A stretch of 64,000 bases of DNA, taken from Bacteroidia bacterium. GTDB lineage: Bacteria > Bacteroidota > Bacteroidia > JADZBD01. This document shows, piece by piece, positions 28,756-34,657 of the stretch. The position numbers and the translations under genes were made by a program. Every line of letters starts with the position of its first letter. The stretch's first letter is position 1. Under the pieces are notes generated by a model. The model searched no databases. It saw only the letters and a program-made list of their open reading frames with translations, and had not been told where the DNA came from. The stretch is taken from contig JADZBD010000009.1 of the NCBI GenBank assembly GCA_020852255.1, positions 124,001-188,000 on the forward strand, read 5' to 3'.

Positions 28756-30648
28756 TCAGCCGATCCGGTTTTTAACAATCTCCTCCACTACCGCAGGGTC
28801 AAGTAAAGTAGAAGTGTCGCCAAGATTCCCGGTCTCTCCTTCTGCAATTTTTCGCAGGATTCGCCGCATTATTTTGCCGGATCTTGTTTTTGGGAGCCCT
28901 TTTACCACCTGTATTTTATCCGGGCGGGCGATAGGACCCATATATTTGGTTACGGTATCTATTACTTCCTTTTGCAGCAGGTCTTCCCTTTCCGGGGTAT
29001 GTTCACATATTACAAAGGCATAAATTCCCCAGCCTTTAATGGGATGCGGGAATCCTACTACGGCACTCTCCACTACATTGGGATGCTGGTTGATGGCACT
29101 CTCTACCTCGGCCGTTCCCAGCAAATGACCAGAAACCTTGATCACATCATCCACCCGCCCGGTGATGCGATAGTAACCGTCCGCATCCCTCCGGCAACCA
29201 TCGCCGGAAAAGTAGTAGCCGGGATATTCAGAAAAGTATACTTCTTTGCATCGTTTATGGTTGTTGTAAGTGGTCCGGATGATTCCCGGCCAGGGAAATT
29301 TAAAACATAATCTTCCCTCTGCTTTCATCTCTGTAATTTCTTTCCCGGCTTCATCAAGGAGTACCGGAACTATACCCGGAACAGGGAGTGTGGCGTACGA
29401 CGGACGTTCCGGAGTTATACCTGCCAGAGGAGAGATCATGATTCCTCCCGTTTCTGTCTGCCACCAGGTATCCACAATCGGGCACTTCTCCTTACCGATA
29501 TTCTTATGATACCAGTGCCATGCCTCCTCATTGATAGGTTCTCCTACCGAACCAAGTATCCTGAGGCTGTTCAGTGAGTAGGGCTTCACAAACTCCAGGC
29601 CGGCCGCTTCCAGCGAACGGATAGCGGTAGGAGCCGTGTATAAAATATTCACTTTATGTTTATCCACTACCTGCCAGAAACGGCCGGCATCAGGGAACGT
29701 AGGAATCCCTTCGAACATCAGCGAGGTAGCTCCGTTGAGAAGGGGACCATAAACCAGGTAGGAGTGCCCTGTTACCCATCCAATATCTGCCGTACACCAG
29801 AAAACCTCCCCGGGTTCATACTGGAACACATTCAGAAAGGTGTAGGCTGTGAAAACCATGTACCCTGCAGTGGTATGAACCACTCCCTTCGGTTTTCCGG
29901 TACTTCCGGAAGTATATAAAATGAACAGCATATCTTCACTGTTCATAGGTTCAGCCGGACAAATGTTGCGCTGCTCCCGGCATTCCTCCTCCCACCATGC
30001 ATCTCTGCCGGCAGTCATACTCACGGTGGAGCCTGTTCGTTTGAGAACGATTACTTTTTTAACGGTAGGGCACGTTTTTAAAGCTTCGTCCACCACCGGT
30101 TTCAACGGAACCTCCTTTGCTCCACGATAGCCTCCATCGGCTGTGAGTACGAGGCTGCACTCCGCGTCGTGTATTCGGTCTGCCAGGGAGCTGAAAGAAA
30201 ACCCGCCGAACACTACCGAATGAATTGCACCGATTCTCGCGCATGCGAGAAGGGCAAATGTCAGTTCCGGTACCATAGGCATATAAATGCACACCCGGTC
30301 GCCTTTTCTGACTCCGTTTTTTTTCAGCATGTTGGCTACCCGGCACACTTCGTTGTGTAATTCAAGGTAGGTGAACGTTCGCGAGGGTTCATCCGGATTA
30401 TTAGGCTCCCAAATAATCGCTCGCTGGTGGCCTAGTTTACTCAGGTGCCTGTCGATACAGTTTTCGGTAATATTCAATTCCCCGCCTAAATACCATTTAA
30501 TATCGGGTGCGTCGAAATTCCACTCCAGGATAGTATCCCATTTCTTTTTCCATAAAAACTCTGACGCAATGCCTGCCCAGAATTCCCTTGGGTCTTTTAC
30601 GCCGGCCTCATAGTGCCTGCGGTAATCATCCATGCTTCGAATTCTCAT
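28756..30648 (-). CDS. acs: Acetyl-CoA synthetase
   Basis: This 630-residue AMP-forming enzyme converts acetate, ATP and CoA to acetyl-CoA. The P-loop YTSGSTGKPKG, the WWQTETGG motif and the C-terminal SGKIMRR with the acetylation-site Lys are present. The ATG at 30648 gives the usual N-terminus; a further in-frame ATG lies at 30633. The ORF can be extended to 30750, but that part overlaps proC. It follows proC by 17 bp and has no obvious promoter of its own. Confidence 0.95.
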   Translation of the reverse strand: MRIRSMDDYRRHYEAGVKDPREFWAGIASEFLWKKKWDTILEWNFDAPDIKWYLGGELNITENCIDRHLSKLGHQRAIIWEPNNPDEPSRTFTYLELHNEVCRVANMLKKNGVRKGDRVCIYMPMVPELTFALLACARIGAIHSVVFGGFSFSSLADRIHDAECSLVLTADGGYRGAKEVPLKPVVDEALKTCPTVKKVIVLKRTGSTVSMTAGRDAWWEEECREQRNICPAEPMNSEDMLFILYTSGSTGKPKGVVHTTAGYMVFTAYTFLNVFQYEPGEVFWCTADIGWVTGHSYLVYGPLLNGATSLMFEGIPTFPDAGRFWQVVDKHKVNILYTAPTAIRSLEAAGLEFVKPYSLNSLRILGSVGEPINEEAWHWYHKNIGKEKCPIVDTWWQTETGGIMISPLAGITPERPSYATLPVPGIVPVLLDEAGKEITEMKAEGRLCFKFPWPGIIRTTYNNHKRCKEVYFSEYPGYYFSGDGCRRDADGYYRITGRVDDVIKVSGHLLGTAEVESAINQHPNVVESAVVGFPHPIKGWGIYAFVICEHTPEREDLLQKEVIDTVTKYMGPIARPDKIQVVKGLPKTRSGKIMRRILRKIAEGETGNLGDTSTLLDPAVVEEIVKNRIG

Positions 30649-30665
30649 GAAGTGAAGGTAATAAA

Positions 30666-31466
30666 TTACCGAGCGAGTTCTGCAGCACGCTCGCGTGCTT
30701 TCTGCATACCCGCCGACAGCCCCTCTCCTACTCCTTGCTCTTCGAAACACCGGAAAGCCGCTTCGGTTGTTCCTCCCCTGGACATTACAGCCCGGATGAG
30801 TTCATCAAGGGATTTTCCGGAAGTGTTCAATAGATGAAAAGAACCGAGCATGGTTTGCTTCACAAGATTGCCGGCAATGTGCTCATCCAGCCCCATTCGC
30901 TTCCCGGCCTCAATCATGGCTCTTACGATATAAAAAAAGTAAGCCGGTCCTGATCCGGAAACACCGGTAACGGAATTCAGCATTTCCTCATCTTCAAAAT
31001 AGATAGTTCTTCCGGTTGTTCCCAGAAGATTTTCGGCCTTTTTGGTCTCATCCATAGTCATTTCACGGCTGCAGGAATAACCTGTCATGCCCATGCCTAT
31101 TTCCGCCGGCGAATTTGGCATAGCCCGGACCACGCGGGCTTGTCTGAGTTCCTTCTGAAGGGTGGGAATTCGAATGCCGGCCATAATGGAAATGATGATC
31201 TGACCATCCCGTAACACTGGTCGCAGTTCATCAGCCAGCGCATCGAAGTCTTGAGGCTTTACAGCAATAATAATGATATCACTGCGGCCTACCTCAGGAT
31301 CATTCACGGTAGTAACAAGCCCCAATCCTGCTTCTTTGAGTATTTCCTTTCTTTCACGGCTTTTCTCGGCGAGGTAGAGGCGTGAGCGCTCCACAATATT
31401 ATATTTCAAAAATGCGCGGGCATAGATCAATCCCATATTCCCGCAACCTGCAATAGTTACTTTCAT
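30666..31466 (-). CDS. proC: Pyrroline-5-carboxylate reductase
   Basis: This 266-residue NADPH enzyme makes the last step of proline synthesis. The Rossmann motif GCGNMG is at the N-terminus and the family signature VTGVSGSGPAYFF is near residue 165. It starts 1 bp after the DAHP synthase-chorismate mutase stop, so it is likely translated from the same attenuated transcript. Confidence 0.95.
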   Translation of the reverse strand: MKVTIAGCGNMGLIYARAFLKYNIVERSRLYLAEKSRERKEILKEAGLGLVTTVNDPEVGRSDIIIIAVKPQDFDALADELRPVLRDGQIIISIMAGIRIPTLQKELRQARVVRAMPNSPAEIGMGMTGYSCSREMTMDETKKAENLLGTTGRTIYFEDEEMLNSVTGVSGSGPAYFFYIVRAMIEAGKRMGLDEHIAGNLVKQTMLGSFHLLNTSGKSLDELIRAVMSRGGTTEAAFRCFEEQGVGEGLSAGMQKARERAAELAR

Positions 31467-31467
31467 A

Positions 31468-32574
31468 TTATTTCTTTTCTTCCTGCAGAACAGGGTTCAG
31501 GATTTCTGTCTGGATGCGGATGGATTCATCATGTACGAGTTCGAAGAGTCTTTTAATAAACTCATCCTTCAGTCCGAGCATACGTCCGTTTGCGATCCGC
31601 TGTTCCAGCATTTCATCCCACCGGCTCAGTTGCAGGATCGTCATGTTTTTTGATTTTTTCAGCTCACCGATCTGTTCAGATAGCTGCATGCGGGAACGGA
31701 AAGCCTGCAAAAGCTCTTCGTCCAGTGCGTTGATCTTATCCCGAAGCTGTTCCAGCTTTTCTTTGCTGCCATTGAGAGGGGCGTCCTTTTTTCTTTCTAC
31801 CATTCCCTCAAGGATCTCATTCAACATTTCCGGTGTTACCTGCTGACGTGCATCGCTCCAGGCCAGATCCGGCTGCACATGCGCTTCAATCATCCATCCA
31901 TCCAGATCCATATCTATGGCTTTCTGCGCGAGGTACGGAATGAGCTCCCGTTGCCCTGCAATATGACTCGGATCGCAGAGAACAGGCAGGTTGGGATGTA
32001 AACGTTTCAGTTCAACAACTATCTCCCACAACGGATGATTCCTGAACGGGTGATTTCCGTGAACATGAAACCCGCGGTGTATCGCTCCCAGATGTGTTAT
32101 TCCTGCTTTGTTCACACGTTCCAGCGCACCCAGCCATAATTGCAGATCGGCATGAATGGGATTTTTTATCAGCACGGTGGTATCCGTTCCTTTCAGTGCG
32201 TCTGCGATCTCCTGCACGGTAAAAGGATTGACGGTGCTTCTGGCTCCAATCCAGAAATGCCTGATTCCTGTCTGCAGGCATGCTTCCACATGCTTTGCAG
32301 AAGCAACTTCGGTTATGATTGTAAGACCTGTTTCTCGGTTCACCCTGGTGAGCCAGGGGAGTGCCTTGGCTCCCACCCCCTCAAATGCATCCGGCCGTGT
32401 ACGGGGCTTCCACAATCCCGCACGAAACCAGAATGCTCTTCCCGTTCGCTGCAGCCGGAGGGCTGTCTGGAAAACCTGCTCCTCGGTTTCTGCGCTGCAA
32501 GGCCCGGCGATGAGAAGTTGTCTGCCGCCCGTTTTCCATTTATCTCTTGGTACAATATTGATGTCCGTTTTCAT
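31468..32574 (-). CDS. Bifunctional DAHP synthase-chorismate mutase
   Basis: This 368-residue fusion joins the first committed step of aromatic synthesis with the branch to Phe and Tyr. Residues about 10-260 form a type I beta DAHP synthase (IAGPCSAET, HGNHPFRNHP, CDPSHIAG). Residues about 275-360 form an AroQ-type chorismate mutase (LRDKINALDEELL, with Arg and Lys residues along the helices). The fusion is common in Bacteroidota. It is preceded by a Tyr/Phe-rich leader peptide and an intrinsic terminator, so it is likely controlled by attenuation. Confidence 0.95.
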   Translation of the reverse strand: MKTDINIVPRDKWKTGGRQLLIAGPCSAETEEQVFQTALRLQRTGRAFWFRAGLWKPRTRPDAFEGVGAKALPWLTRVNRETGLTIITEVASAKHVEACLQTGIRHFWIGARSTVNPFTVQEIADALKGTDTTVLIKNPIHADLQLWLGALERVNKAGITHLGAIHRGFHVHGNHPFRNHPLWEIVVELKRLHPNLPVLCDPSHIAGQRELIPYLAQKAIDMDLDGWMIEAHVQPDLAWSDARQQVTPEMLNEILEGMVERKKDAPLNGSKEKLEQLRDKINALDEELLQAFRSRMQLSEQIGELKKSKNMTILQLSRWDEMLEQRIANGRMLGLKDEFIKRLFELVHDESIRIQTEILNPVLQEEKK

Positions 32575-32630: not shown

Positions 32631-32661
32631 AAAAAAAAGAACCCCGGCAGGGCCGGGGTTC
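32631..32661 (-). terminator. Attenuator terminator before the DAHP synthase gene
   Basis: On the minus strand GAACCCCGGC (right arm on plus, 32652-32661) pairs perfectly with GCCGGGGTTC (32639-32648), with a 3-nt loop, followed by eight T (32631-32638). It lies 56 bp before the DAHP synthase ATG and 27 bp after the leader stop, so it would cut transcription before the genes. Confidence 0.88.
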
Positions 32662-32688
32662 GAATAGCTTTCATTTGTATCTGGCAAA

Positions 32689-32757
32689 TTACTTCCTCTC
32701 CATTCCCCGGCCTGGTCTGGTGTAATAATACGGGAGGAAGAAATAGTTCGTATTCAT
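32689..32757 (-). CDS. Tyr/Phe-rich leader peptide (attenuation)
   Basis: This 22-residue reading frame starts with ATG at 32757, ends with TAA at 32689-32691, and contains the block YFFLPYYY: two Phe and four Tyr within eight residues. Codons after the block encode TRPGRGMERK. The frame is too short for usual gene prediction, but its composition, its place after a perfect -7 element and before the terminator strongly suggest a leader peptide whose translation reports Phe- and Tyr-tRNA charging, like pheL in enterobacteria. Confidence 0.82.
   Translation of the reverse strand: MNTNYFFLPYYYTRPGRGMERK
32705..32712 (-). promoter_or_regulatory. Antiterminator arm within the leader peptide coding region
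   Basis: The minus strand reads GGCCGGGG, an exact complement of CCCCGGCC in the 5' arm and loop of the terminator (minus strand, 32644-32651 region upstream half). A ribosome stalled on the Phe/Tyr codons would leave this arm free to pair and block the terminator; a ribosome reaching the stop would cover it. Confidence 0.68.
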
Positions 32758-32767
32758 AATAACAGGA

Positions 32768-32775
32768 CAAAGATA
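32768..32775 (-). promoter_or_regulatory. -7 element of the aromatic leader transcript
   Basis: TATCTTTG, a full match to TAnnTTTG, lies 10 bp upstream of the leader peptide ATG on the minus strand. It is downstream of the acyltransferase stop, so the leader transcript starts here. Confidence 0.6.
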
Positions 32776-32803: not shown

Positions 32804-33682
32804 TCAGCAGGAAATATTTTCGGGCCGGCGGTGCTTCCACCTCCGGTGGCTCCATAACCAGTTGAATGGTTGAGTGTTAATATCCCTCTCCAGCAAACGC
32901 GTATGGCGCTCCGTCAACTCGTTTTCCCTCAGGGAGGCAGGATCAGTTGTAATCAGCTCCGTCTTTATCAGGTAATGACCACGGCGCACTTTCTGAATCC
33001 ACACATAAACTACAGCCAAATTCATTTTACGCGACATCACCTCTGCGCCCTTATATACGGGAGTATCCTGATTCAAAAACCGTGTCCAGTAAGCGGATTC
33101 CGGGGAGGGCGTCTGATCTCCCAGAAAAACCGTACCGGTTAATATATTCCGGTTCCGCACAAACTCCCTGTAGGTATCCTTCACCGCAACCGGCCTGGTT
33201 CCGAAGCGAGAACGGATCCGGTACATCAGGTGATCAAATCCTCTATTGGAGAGAGGGAGGTAAAGGCAATTTACCTGGTAACCCTCCAGTCCGGCAACAC
33301 TGGCAGATGCCATCTCCCAGTTTCCGCAATGTCCCATCACCCAGATGACACTTTTACCTTGTGCATGGAGCGAGCGGGTCAGTTCACGGGTCTCAGGACT
33401 TATCACACAACGTTTCAATACAGAATTCCGGGAGCAGGAGATCAGTTTTATCGTTTCAAAAATGAGATCACAGAAATGCGCATAGAATTGTTTGGCAATA
33501 AGAATCCGTTCCTTTTCCGTTTTTTCAGGAAAGGCATTCCGTAAATTGCTTAAAACAACTTTCTTTCTATACCCGATGATATAATAAATAAAAAAGTAAA
33601 AGATGGAAGAGCGCAGATAGATCAGACTCCACGGTAAAAGAGAGTCAAGTAAGAGAAAGGGATAGATCAGATAGAAACCCAC
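32804..33682 (-). CDS. Lysophospholipid/lipid A acyltransferase (LpxL/HtrB-like)
   Basis: This protein of about 290 residues has one N-terminal membrane segment region and the acyltransferase motif HX4E (GHCGNWE), with the downstream VFLGDQTPSPE segment typical of the LpxL family. It probably adds a secondary acyl chain to lipid A in the inner membrane. No ATG exists before the conserved region except one at 33754 that overlaps the divergent gene; I tentatively use the GTG at 33682, close behind a TACCTTTA -7-like element (33687-33694). The start is uncertain. Confidence 0.85.
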   Translation of the reverse strand: MGFYLIYPFLLLDSLLPWSLIYLRSSIFYFFIYYIIGYRKKVVLSNLRNAFPEKTEKERILIAKQFYAHFCDLIFETIKLISCSRNSVLKRCVISPETRELTRSLHAQGKSVIWVMGHCGNWEMASASVAGLEGYQVNCLYLPLSNRGFDHLMYRIRSRFGTRPVAVKDTYREFVRNRNILTGTVFLGDQTPSPESAYWTRFLNQDTPVYKGAEVMSRKMNLAVVYVWIQKVRRGHYLIKTELITTDPASLRENELTERHTRLLERDINTQPFNWLWSHRRWKHRRPENISC

Positions 33683-33686
33683 GGGG

Positions 33687-33710
33687 TAAAGGTAGTAAGC
33701 ATTATCTTTA
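33687..33710. promoter_or_regulatory. Divergent -7 elements of the acyltransferase and dehydratase genes
   Basis: TACCTTTA lies on the minus strand (33687-33694) and TATCTTTA on the plus strand (33703-33710), 8 bp apart. The rightward one ends 8 bp before the ATG at 33719. Each matches 5 of 6 informative positions of TAnnTTTG. Confidence 0.42.
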
Positions 33711-33718
33711 TCCTCAGC

Positions 33719-34657
33719 ATGAGCATTACACGTGAACAGATACTTCGCGCCCACCAGCGCATTTCTCCCTATGTTCTGCGTACGCCGGTTGTACGGGCCA
33801 AATCTTTAGAAGCCATGCTGAACTGCGAATTGTTTCTCAAATGCGAGAACCGCCAGAAGATCGGGGCATTTAAAGCAAGGGGAGCCATGAATGCCGTACT
33901 GCTACTTTCCGAAAGCGACCGGAAGAAGGGCGTGGCAACACATTCCAGCGGAAATCACGCACAGGCACTGGCGCTGGCAGCCCGGGAATTCGGACTGAAG
34001 GCCTGGATTGTGATGCCGGAAAACAGTTCCCCCGTTAAAATTGCAGGGGTGAAGGCTCTGGGCGCTGAAGTTATTTTTTGTGCACCGGGAACGGAGAACA
34101 GGAGAGCGGCATTGGATCAGGTGGTAGCACAGCACGGGGCTCTATTCATACCACCTTACGATCACCCGCACATCATTGAAGGACAAGCCAGCGCGGCGAA
34201 GGAACTTATAGAAGAAATTCCCGGTCTGGATCTGATTCTGGTGCCGGTGGGCGGCGGAGGGCTTCTCAGCGGAACAGCATTGGCCGCGCATTATCTTTCC
34301 CCTTCCACCTCCGTGTACGGATGCGAGCCGGAGAATATGGACGATGCTCACCGGAGCTTTCTTTCCGGCAAGCCGGAACCACTGAAGGAAGGAAGCACTA
34401 CGGTAGCTGACGGGCTGCGCACCACGCTTGGCATTCTCCCGCTCACCCTTATAAAAAAATACGTGAAGGGCATCCTGACAGTACCTGAACAGGAGATACT
34501 TCCCGCCATGGAGTTTATTCGCGTACGTGAGGGAGAGATCATTGAACCATCCAGTGCGGTTCCGGTAGCTGCACTTCTAAGAAACAAACGGCTCATCGCA
34601 GGGAAGCGCGTAGGTGTGATCCTCAGTGGCGGAAATGTAAATAAAGCAGATAATTAA
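33719..34657 (+). CDS. Threonine/serine dehydratase or serine racemase-like PLP enzyme
   Basis: This 312-residue fold-type II PLP enzyme has the lysine motif KIGAFKARGA, the SSGNHAQALA loop and the glycine-rich phosphate site GGGGLLSG. The short length without a regulatory ACT domain fits serine racemase, catabolic threonine dehydratase or hydroxyaspartate ammonia-lyase; sequence alone does not decide. It is not the biosynthetic IlvA type, which is longer. Confidence 0.88.
   Translation: MSITREQILRAHQRISPYVLRTPVVRAKSLEAMLNCELFLKCENRQKIGAFKARGAMNAVLLLSESDRKKGVATHSSGNHAQALALAAREFGLKAWIVMPENSSPVKIAGVKALGAEVIFCAPGTENRRAALDQVVAQHGALFIPPYDHPHIIEGQASAAKELIEEIPGLDLILVPVGGGGLLSGTALAAHYLSPSTSVYGCEPENMDDAHRSFLSGKPEPLKEGSTTVADGLRTTLGILPLTLIKKYVKGILTVPEQEILPAMEFIRVREGEIIEPSSAVPVAALLRNKRLIAGKRVGVILSGGNVNKADN

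Follow-up and report, generated by a model that had tools for sequence, protein, structure and literature searches.

A putative Phe/Tyr ribosome-mediated attenuator directly ahead of a DAHP synthase-chorismate mutase gene in a Bacteroidia genome without detectable pheA

In the window, i.e., the whole 64-kb stretch of DNA analyzed here, an acyltransferase gene, a short leader region, and a gene for a DAHP synthase-chorismate mutase fusion (DAHPS/CM) follow one another on the minus strand (Table 1). The fusion carries both Pfam domains listed in Table 1, and its NCBIfam matches all lie under the curated cut-offs. Since proC and an acetate-CoA ligase gene (together 28756-31466) closely trail DAHPS/CM, they may share the attenuator described below; co-transcription would probably make the acetate-CoA ligase gene the third of the unit. 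A proC gene likewise sits behind DAHPS/CM in the one further genome of this order that was compared (the sister genome, G001).

Table 1. Leader elements and neighboring genes in the window.
Feature	Position	Strand	Basis or remark
Acyltransferase gene, upstream of the leader	32804..33754	- (same strand)	ORF list
Putative Bacteroidota-type -7 promoter element TATCTTTG (fits TAnnTTTG)	32768..32775	-	Sequence; 10 nt before leader ATG
Leader peptide ORF MNTNYFFLPYYYTRPGRGMERK, 22 codons/22 aa	32689..32757	-	ORF scan, shuffles, equivalents in relatives
Predicted protector (1:2) hairpin, control-codon stretch with G-rich stretch before leader stop	32692..32740	-	Minimum-free-energy and centroid fold; arm borders approximate
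Antiterminator arm (region 2) GGCCGGGG	32705..32712	-	Exact complement of 32658-32651
Region 3 CCCCGGCC, inside terminator	32651..32658	-	Sequence
Intrinsic terminator GAACCCCGGCCCTGCCGGGGTTC, perfect 10 bp, -19.1 kcal/mol	32639..32661	-	Sequence and fold
Terminator T run, eight T	32631..32638	-	Sequence
DAHPS/CM fusion, first gene behind the attenuator	31468..32574	-	PF00793 + PF01817
proC, pyrroline-5-carboxylate reductase	30666..31466	-	One base past DAHPS/CM stop; TIGR00112 above cut-off
Acetate-CoA ligase gene	28756..30648	-	TIGR02188 above cut-off; start codon picked by eye

The leader region contains all the parts that an earlier note on this DNA had listed, at the coordinates it gave: a -7 element, a 22-residue leader ORF with the block YFFLPYYY, an antiterminator arm that exactly complements a segment of the terminator, the 10-bp terminator itself, and eight T. 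The block occupies codons 5-12, and six of its eight residues are Phe or Tyr (F/Y; four Tyr and two Phe). Inspection of the sequence upstream of TATCTTTG showed no clear -33 TTTG; any -33 promoter motif is weak, and the leader ORF lacks an evident Shine-Dalgarno sequence. The terminator stem lies 64 nt before the ATG of DAHPS/CM (32574), between the leader and the first structural gene. The same note had overlooked a further predicted pairing, a 1:2 hairpin formed when the leader-coding sequence near 32740-32730 folds onto a G-rich stretch ending at about 32692.

To judge how readily such an arrangement arises by chance, we scanned both strands of the window and found this single match for an F/Y leader followed by a terminator. 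When the region was put through 20,000 dinucleotide shuffles, 9 of them contained an F/Y ORF (at least six of eight residues), 21 a comparable terminator, and none both. The fold of the whole leader gains modestly over shuffles (z = -1.63). Overlapping TTG and ATG ORFs on both strands were considered as alternative leaders, and only the ORF in Table 1 unites an F/Y block, the arm, and the terminator spacing. No Rfam family reached its gathering score anywhere in the window; a riboswitch or T-box domain thus has no Rfam match, and the ORF and terminator occupy nearly the whole leader. The terminator might also simply serve the acyltransferase gene, which lies upstream on the same strand, with the ORF a product of chance. 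We consider this extremely improbable: the terminator stands about 140 bp beyond that gene and behind a promoter-like element, the shuffles never joined the two parts, and F/Y leaders with their arms are conserved in position across families (see below).

To follow the predicted switch, we placed a model ribosome, whose footprint extends 10 nt beyond the A-site codon, at successive codons of the leader and predicted the fold of the emerging RNA as far as the terminator loop. For A-site positions from codon 1 to codon 12, region 3 pairs with region 2 at -20.1 to -24.2 kcal/mol, to be compared with -19.1 kcal/mol for the terminator. This pairing falls to -11.9 kcal/mol at codon 13 and is lost by codon 14, so the switch point coincides with the end of the control block. 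Hence, these folds, with and without a ribosome footprint as the earlier note had proposed, leave the arm free when the ribosome stalls within the block and masked once it has moved beyond. Both Phe codons sit where a stall is predicted to free the antiterminator. In the equilibrium fold of the full-length leader, the antiterminator is preferred for stalls at codons 5-9 and the terminator at codons 10-12; antitermination at the latter would therefore depend on kinetics, i.e., on the antiterminator forming first. In a spacer-shuffle test on the window's leader alone, the arm paired equally well in 9.5% of shuffles, which falls short of significance. Taken as predictions, the folds describe an antiterminator and a terminator that would exclude each other according to the position of the ribosome.

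Comparison with relatives gave several observations. A contig search with a single protein brought up two relatives, and Limnovirga soli alone is a close one. First, the sister genome carries the operon pheA-DAHPS/CM-proC (L045), with a leader at L045 8758-8842 that consists of TACATTTG, MTNKNRYYFFFYPTPTKGLRKEIYFCN, and a terminator of 16 bp lying 24 nt before pheA; its block is RYYFFFY. In the nascent fold of this leader, pairing persists up to codon 13 and the block spans codons 7-12, which again places the switch at the end of the block. The two leaders are thus alike in architecture, in switch point, and in the downstream order DAHPS/CM-proC, but in the sister pheA comes first behind the leader, and the sequences of terminator and arm differ. 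Second, the loci scanned across Bacteroidia hold 46 F/Y-leader-plus-terminator arrangements, of which three precede neither pheA nor DAHPS/CM and were set aside. The remaining 43 leaders were analyzed; some come from related genomes and are not all independent. For 48 pheA loci the start could be placed, and 35 of them show an F/Y leader no more than about 390 nt away, as opposed to 35 of 2,400 shuffles (1.5%); in this class, leaders before pheA are as a rule mixed. A TAnnTTTG motif occurs up to 60 nt upstream in 21 of the 43. Third, the mean pairing energy of the distal leader arm with the terminator of the same leader is -15.7 kcal/mol, and none of 10,000 permutations among leaders came as low; the window's terminator scores -16.6 kcal/mol with its own arm and -9.7 kcal/mol with the sister's. 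Taken singly, 19 of the 43 leaders reach 5% in the shuffled-spacer test. The earlier note had named loss of the Phe/Tyr block or of the alternative pairing in close relatives as a sign against attenuation; the window's leader came through this check, with the block kept in the sister and at the 35 pheA loci and with arm and terminator covarying.

One leader, in G025 (L046, MNWHKAYFFYYSPSRD), resembles that of the window in lying directly before DAHPS/CM with TATTTTTG and a terminator. It differs in that G025 has pheA elsewhere, and its arm pairing is predicted to be weak (71% in the shuffled-spacer test). A tandem pair of F/Y leader-terminator units stands ahead of pheA at L100, L101, L105, and L111 (G180, G141, G058, and G110, respectively).

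We then asked where pheA lies in the window's genome, which is 99.83% complete in 28 contigs. A search for PF00800 found none there and was positive in all 14 control genomes; the sister's PheA also had no match, even at an E value of 10. The tyrA gene is present, on another contig. In the window, DAHPS/CM stands directly behind the leader terminator, at the position that pheA holds in the sister. The simplest history, drawn from these two genomes, is a deletion that removed pheA from its place between the leader and DAHPS/CM; a relocated pheA hidden in an assembly gap is a less likely alternative. More broadly, PF00800 occurs in 56 of 197 sampled Bacteroidia genomes and is absent from 141, and 41 DAHPS/CM-bearing genomes chosen outside the PF00800-positive set were again negative on re-test. 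DAHPS/CM itself is kept in most sampled genomes. We examined 48 DAHPS/CM loci, nearly all from PF00800-less genomes (a few low-completeness ones were not re-tested), and a convincing F/Y leader precedes the window's alone. The one other match, an F/Y ORF ahead of DAHPS/CM in G071 (L122), was judged to be due to chance, since a shuffle rate of 1.7% gives about 0.8 expected cases in 48. At three loci (L048 6672-7644, L050 7749-8721, and L056 7871-8846), from two families and from genomes without pheA, a deoxyhypusine-synthase-like gene lies directly upstream of DAHPS/CM; PF01916 was tested in L050 only.

We propose, with a probability of about 0.88, that the window's leader attenuates transcription in the classical ribosome-mediated way, that it derives from a pheA operon, and that it now acts directly on DAHPS/CM after the loss of pheA. 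RNA polymerase would start a short way before the leader ATG, with a ribosome trailing it along the 22-codon ORF. With ample charged tRNA-Tyr and tRNA-Phe, the ribosome would pass YFFLPYYY, reach the stop codon, and mask the arm GGCCGGGG, in which case the terminator would form and transcription would halt before DAHPS/CM. When charged Tyr (or Phe) tRNA is scarce, the ribosome would stall in the block and leave region 2 unmasked; this arm would capture CCCCGGCC as soon as it is made, pre-empt the terminator, and allow transcription of DAHPS/CM and proC, and probably of the acetate-CoA ligase gene. Without translation, the 1:2 hairpin would be expected to promote termination. As to descent, the leader would be the attenuator that Bacteroidia have before pheA, and it would have come to stand immediately before DAHPS/CM once the intervening pheA had gone. 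Control by Phe and Tyr codons through ribosome-mediated attenuation, the mechanism named in the earlier note, is strongly supported by the anatomy, the in silico positioning of the ribosome, the conservation in the sister and the class, and the covariation of arm and terminator. What has weakened is its rationale that reading both Phe and Tyr befits an enzyme that supplies both branches: mixed leaders are usual before pheA, pheA intervenes in the sister, and no prephenate dehydratase was found here. The mixed readout therefore seems to have been handed down and not to be an adaptation to DAHPS/CM, and from the sequences the rationale appears not to be needed.

The loss of pheA also invites the reading that the leader is a relic whose sensing is no longer selected and that now acts as a constant partial terminator. 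The failure to find pheA in this genome fits such a relic, as does the absence of convincing F/Y leaders from DAHPS/CM loci in the other sampled pheA-less genomes. We nevertheless hold it to be improbable: the parts are intact, with a perfect terminator, an exactly complementary arm, and a switch point at the block end, and arm and terminator have diverged from the sister yet still match each other, so they have changed together. Moreover, DAHPS/CM and tyrA remain, and sensing of Tyr is therefore still sensible.

The benefit of sensing Phe, in contrast, is unclear, since no pheA is detectable. A refinement compatible with inherited attenuation is that the readout has become effectively Tyr-only, with the Phe codons incidental; we view this as possible, if somewhat doubtful. 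It agrees with the presence of tyrA alongside the missing pheA and with the block's surplus of Tyr, whose F/(F+Y) of 0.33 is tied for the lowest of the 43 leaders (median, 0.54). However, two leaders ahead of genuine pheA share the value of 0.33, so composition does not discriminate, and a stall at either Phe codon is predicted to free the antiterminator. The sampled Bacteroidia without PF00800 may be Phe auxotrophs or may use an unrecognized enzyme. We offer as a speculation, and a rather unlikely one, that the organism still makes Phe with a prephenate (or arogenate) dehydratase that has no relation to PF00800; this would explain why the leader has kept its Phe codons. The same enzyme could then serve many of the sampled Bacteroidia that have DAHPS/CM without PF00800. 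A search for PF00497, as a sign that a periplasmic cyclohexadienyl dehydratase might make Phe instead, gave no match.

In the enterobacterial pheL/pheA system, a Phe-rich leader peptide, alternative 1:2, 2:3, and 3:4 pairings, and an intrinsic terminator precede an aromatic-pathway gene. The window's leader shares a leader peptide with Phe, alternative pairings, and a terminator before a gene of that pathway. Unlike pheL, it has a mixed Phe/Tyr block, a Bacteroidota-type promoter element, and no evident Shine-Dalgarno sequence, and it precedes genes for a DAHPS/CM fusion and proC, not one for a chorismate mutase-prephenate dehydratase. On our best reading, the mechanism is of the known pheL/trpL type and what is unusual is the history, a leader directly on DAHPS/CM without detectable pheA.

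The accessible text of PMC9723704 describes, for Flavobacterium psychrophilum, clues that upstream leader peptides attenuate amino-acid operons. Separately, it lists a structured 5' element upstream of pheA that is conserved in Flavobacteriaceae and has no Rfam match. As far as that text describes the element, the class-wide pheA leaders are probably the same, whereas in the window, whose genome has no detectable pheA, the leader lies directly before DAHPS/CM and hence not ahead of pheA, as the pheA attenuator of Bacteroidia does. Our literature search on Phe/Tyr attenuators of Bacteroidota found nothing specific beyond this study. The present comparison shows that, in many families of Bacteroidia, pheA is preceded by a predicted F/Y ribosome-mediated attenuator. 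In one case the switch appears to have outlived the gene that it probably evolved with and to sit now directly on the first enzyme of the pathway. It also makes two questions testable: the drift of control codons once one branch is gone, and the supply of Phe without a recognizable prephenate dehydratase.

The window's genome also has a trp leader (L043 2620-2720, G000:C18), in which MKMNKNNWWWLSTHS, with the control codons WWW, is followed by a 9-bp terminator and nine T ahead of trpE. Its predicted mechanism is that of the window's leader, with Trp in place of Phe/Tyr and trpE in place of DAHPS/CM; attenuation of this kind is therefore at home in the genome. The last gene of the trp operon encodes a second DAHP synthase.
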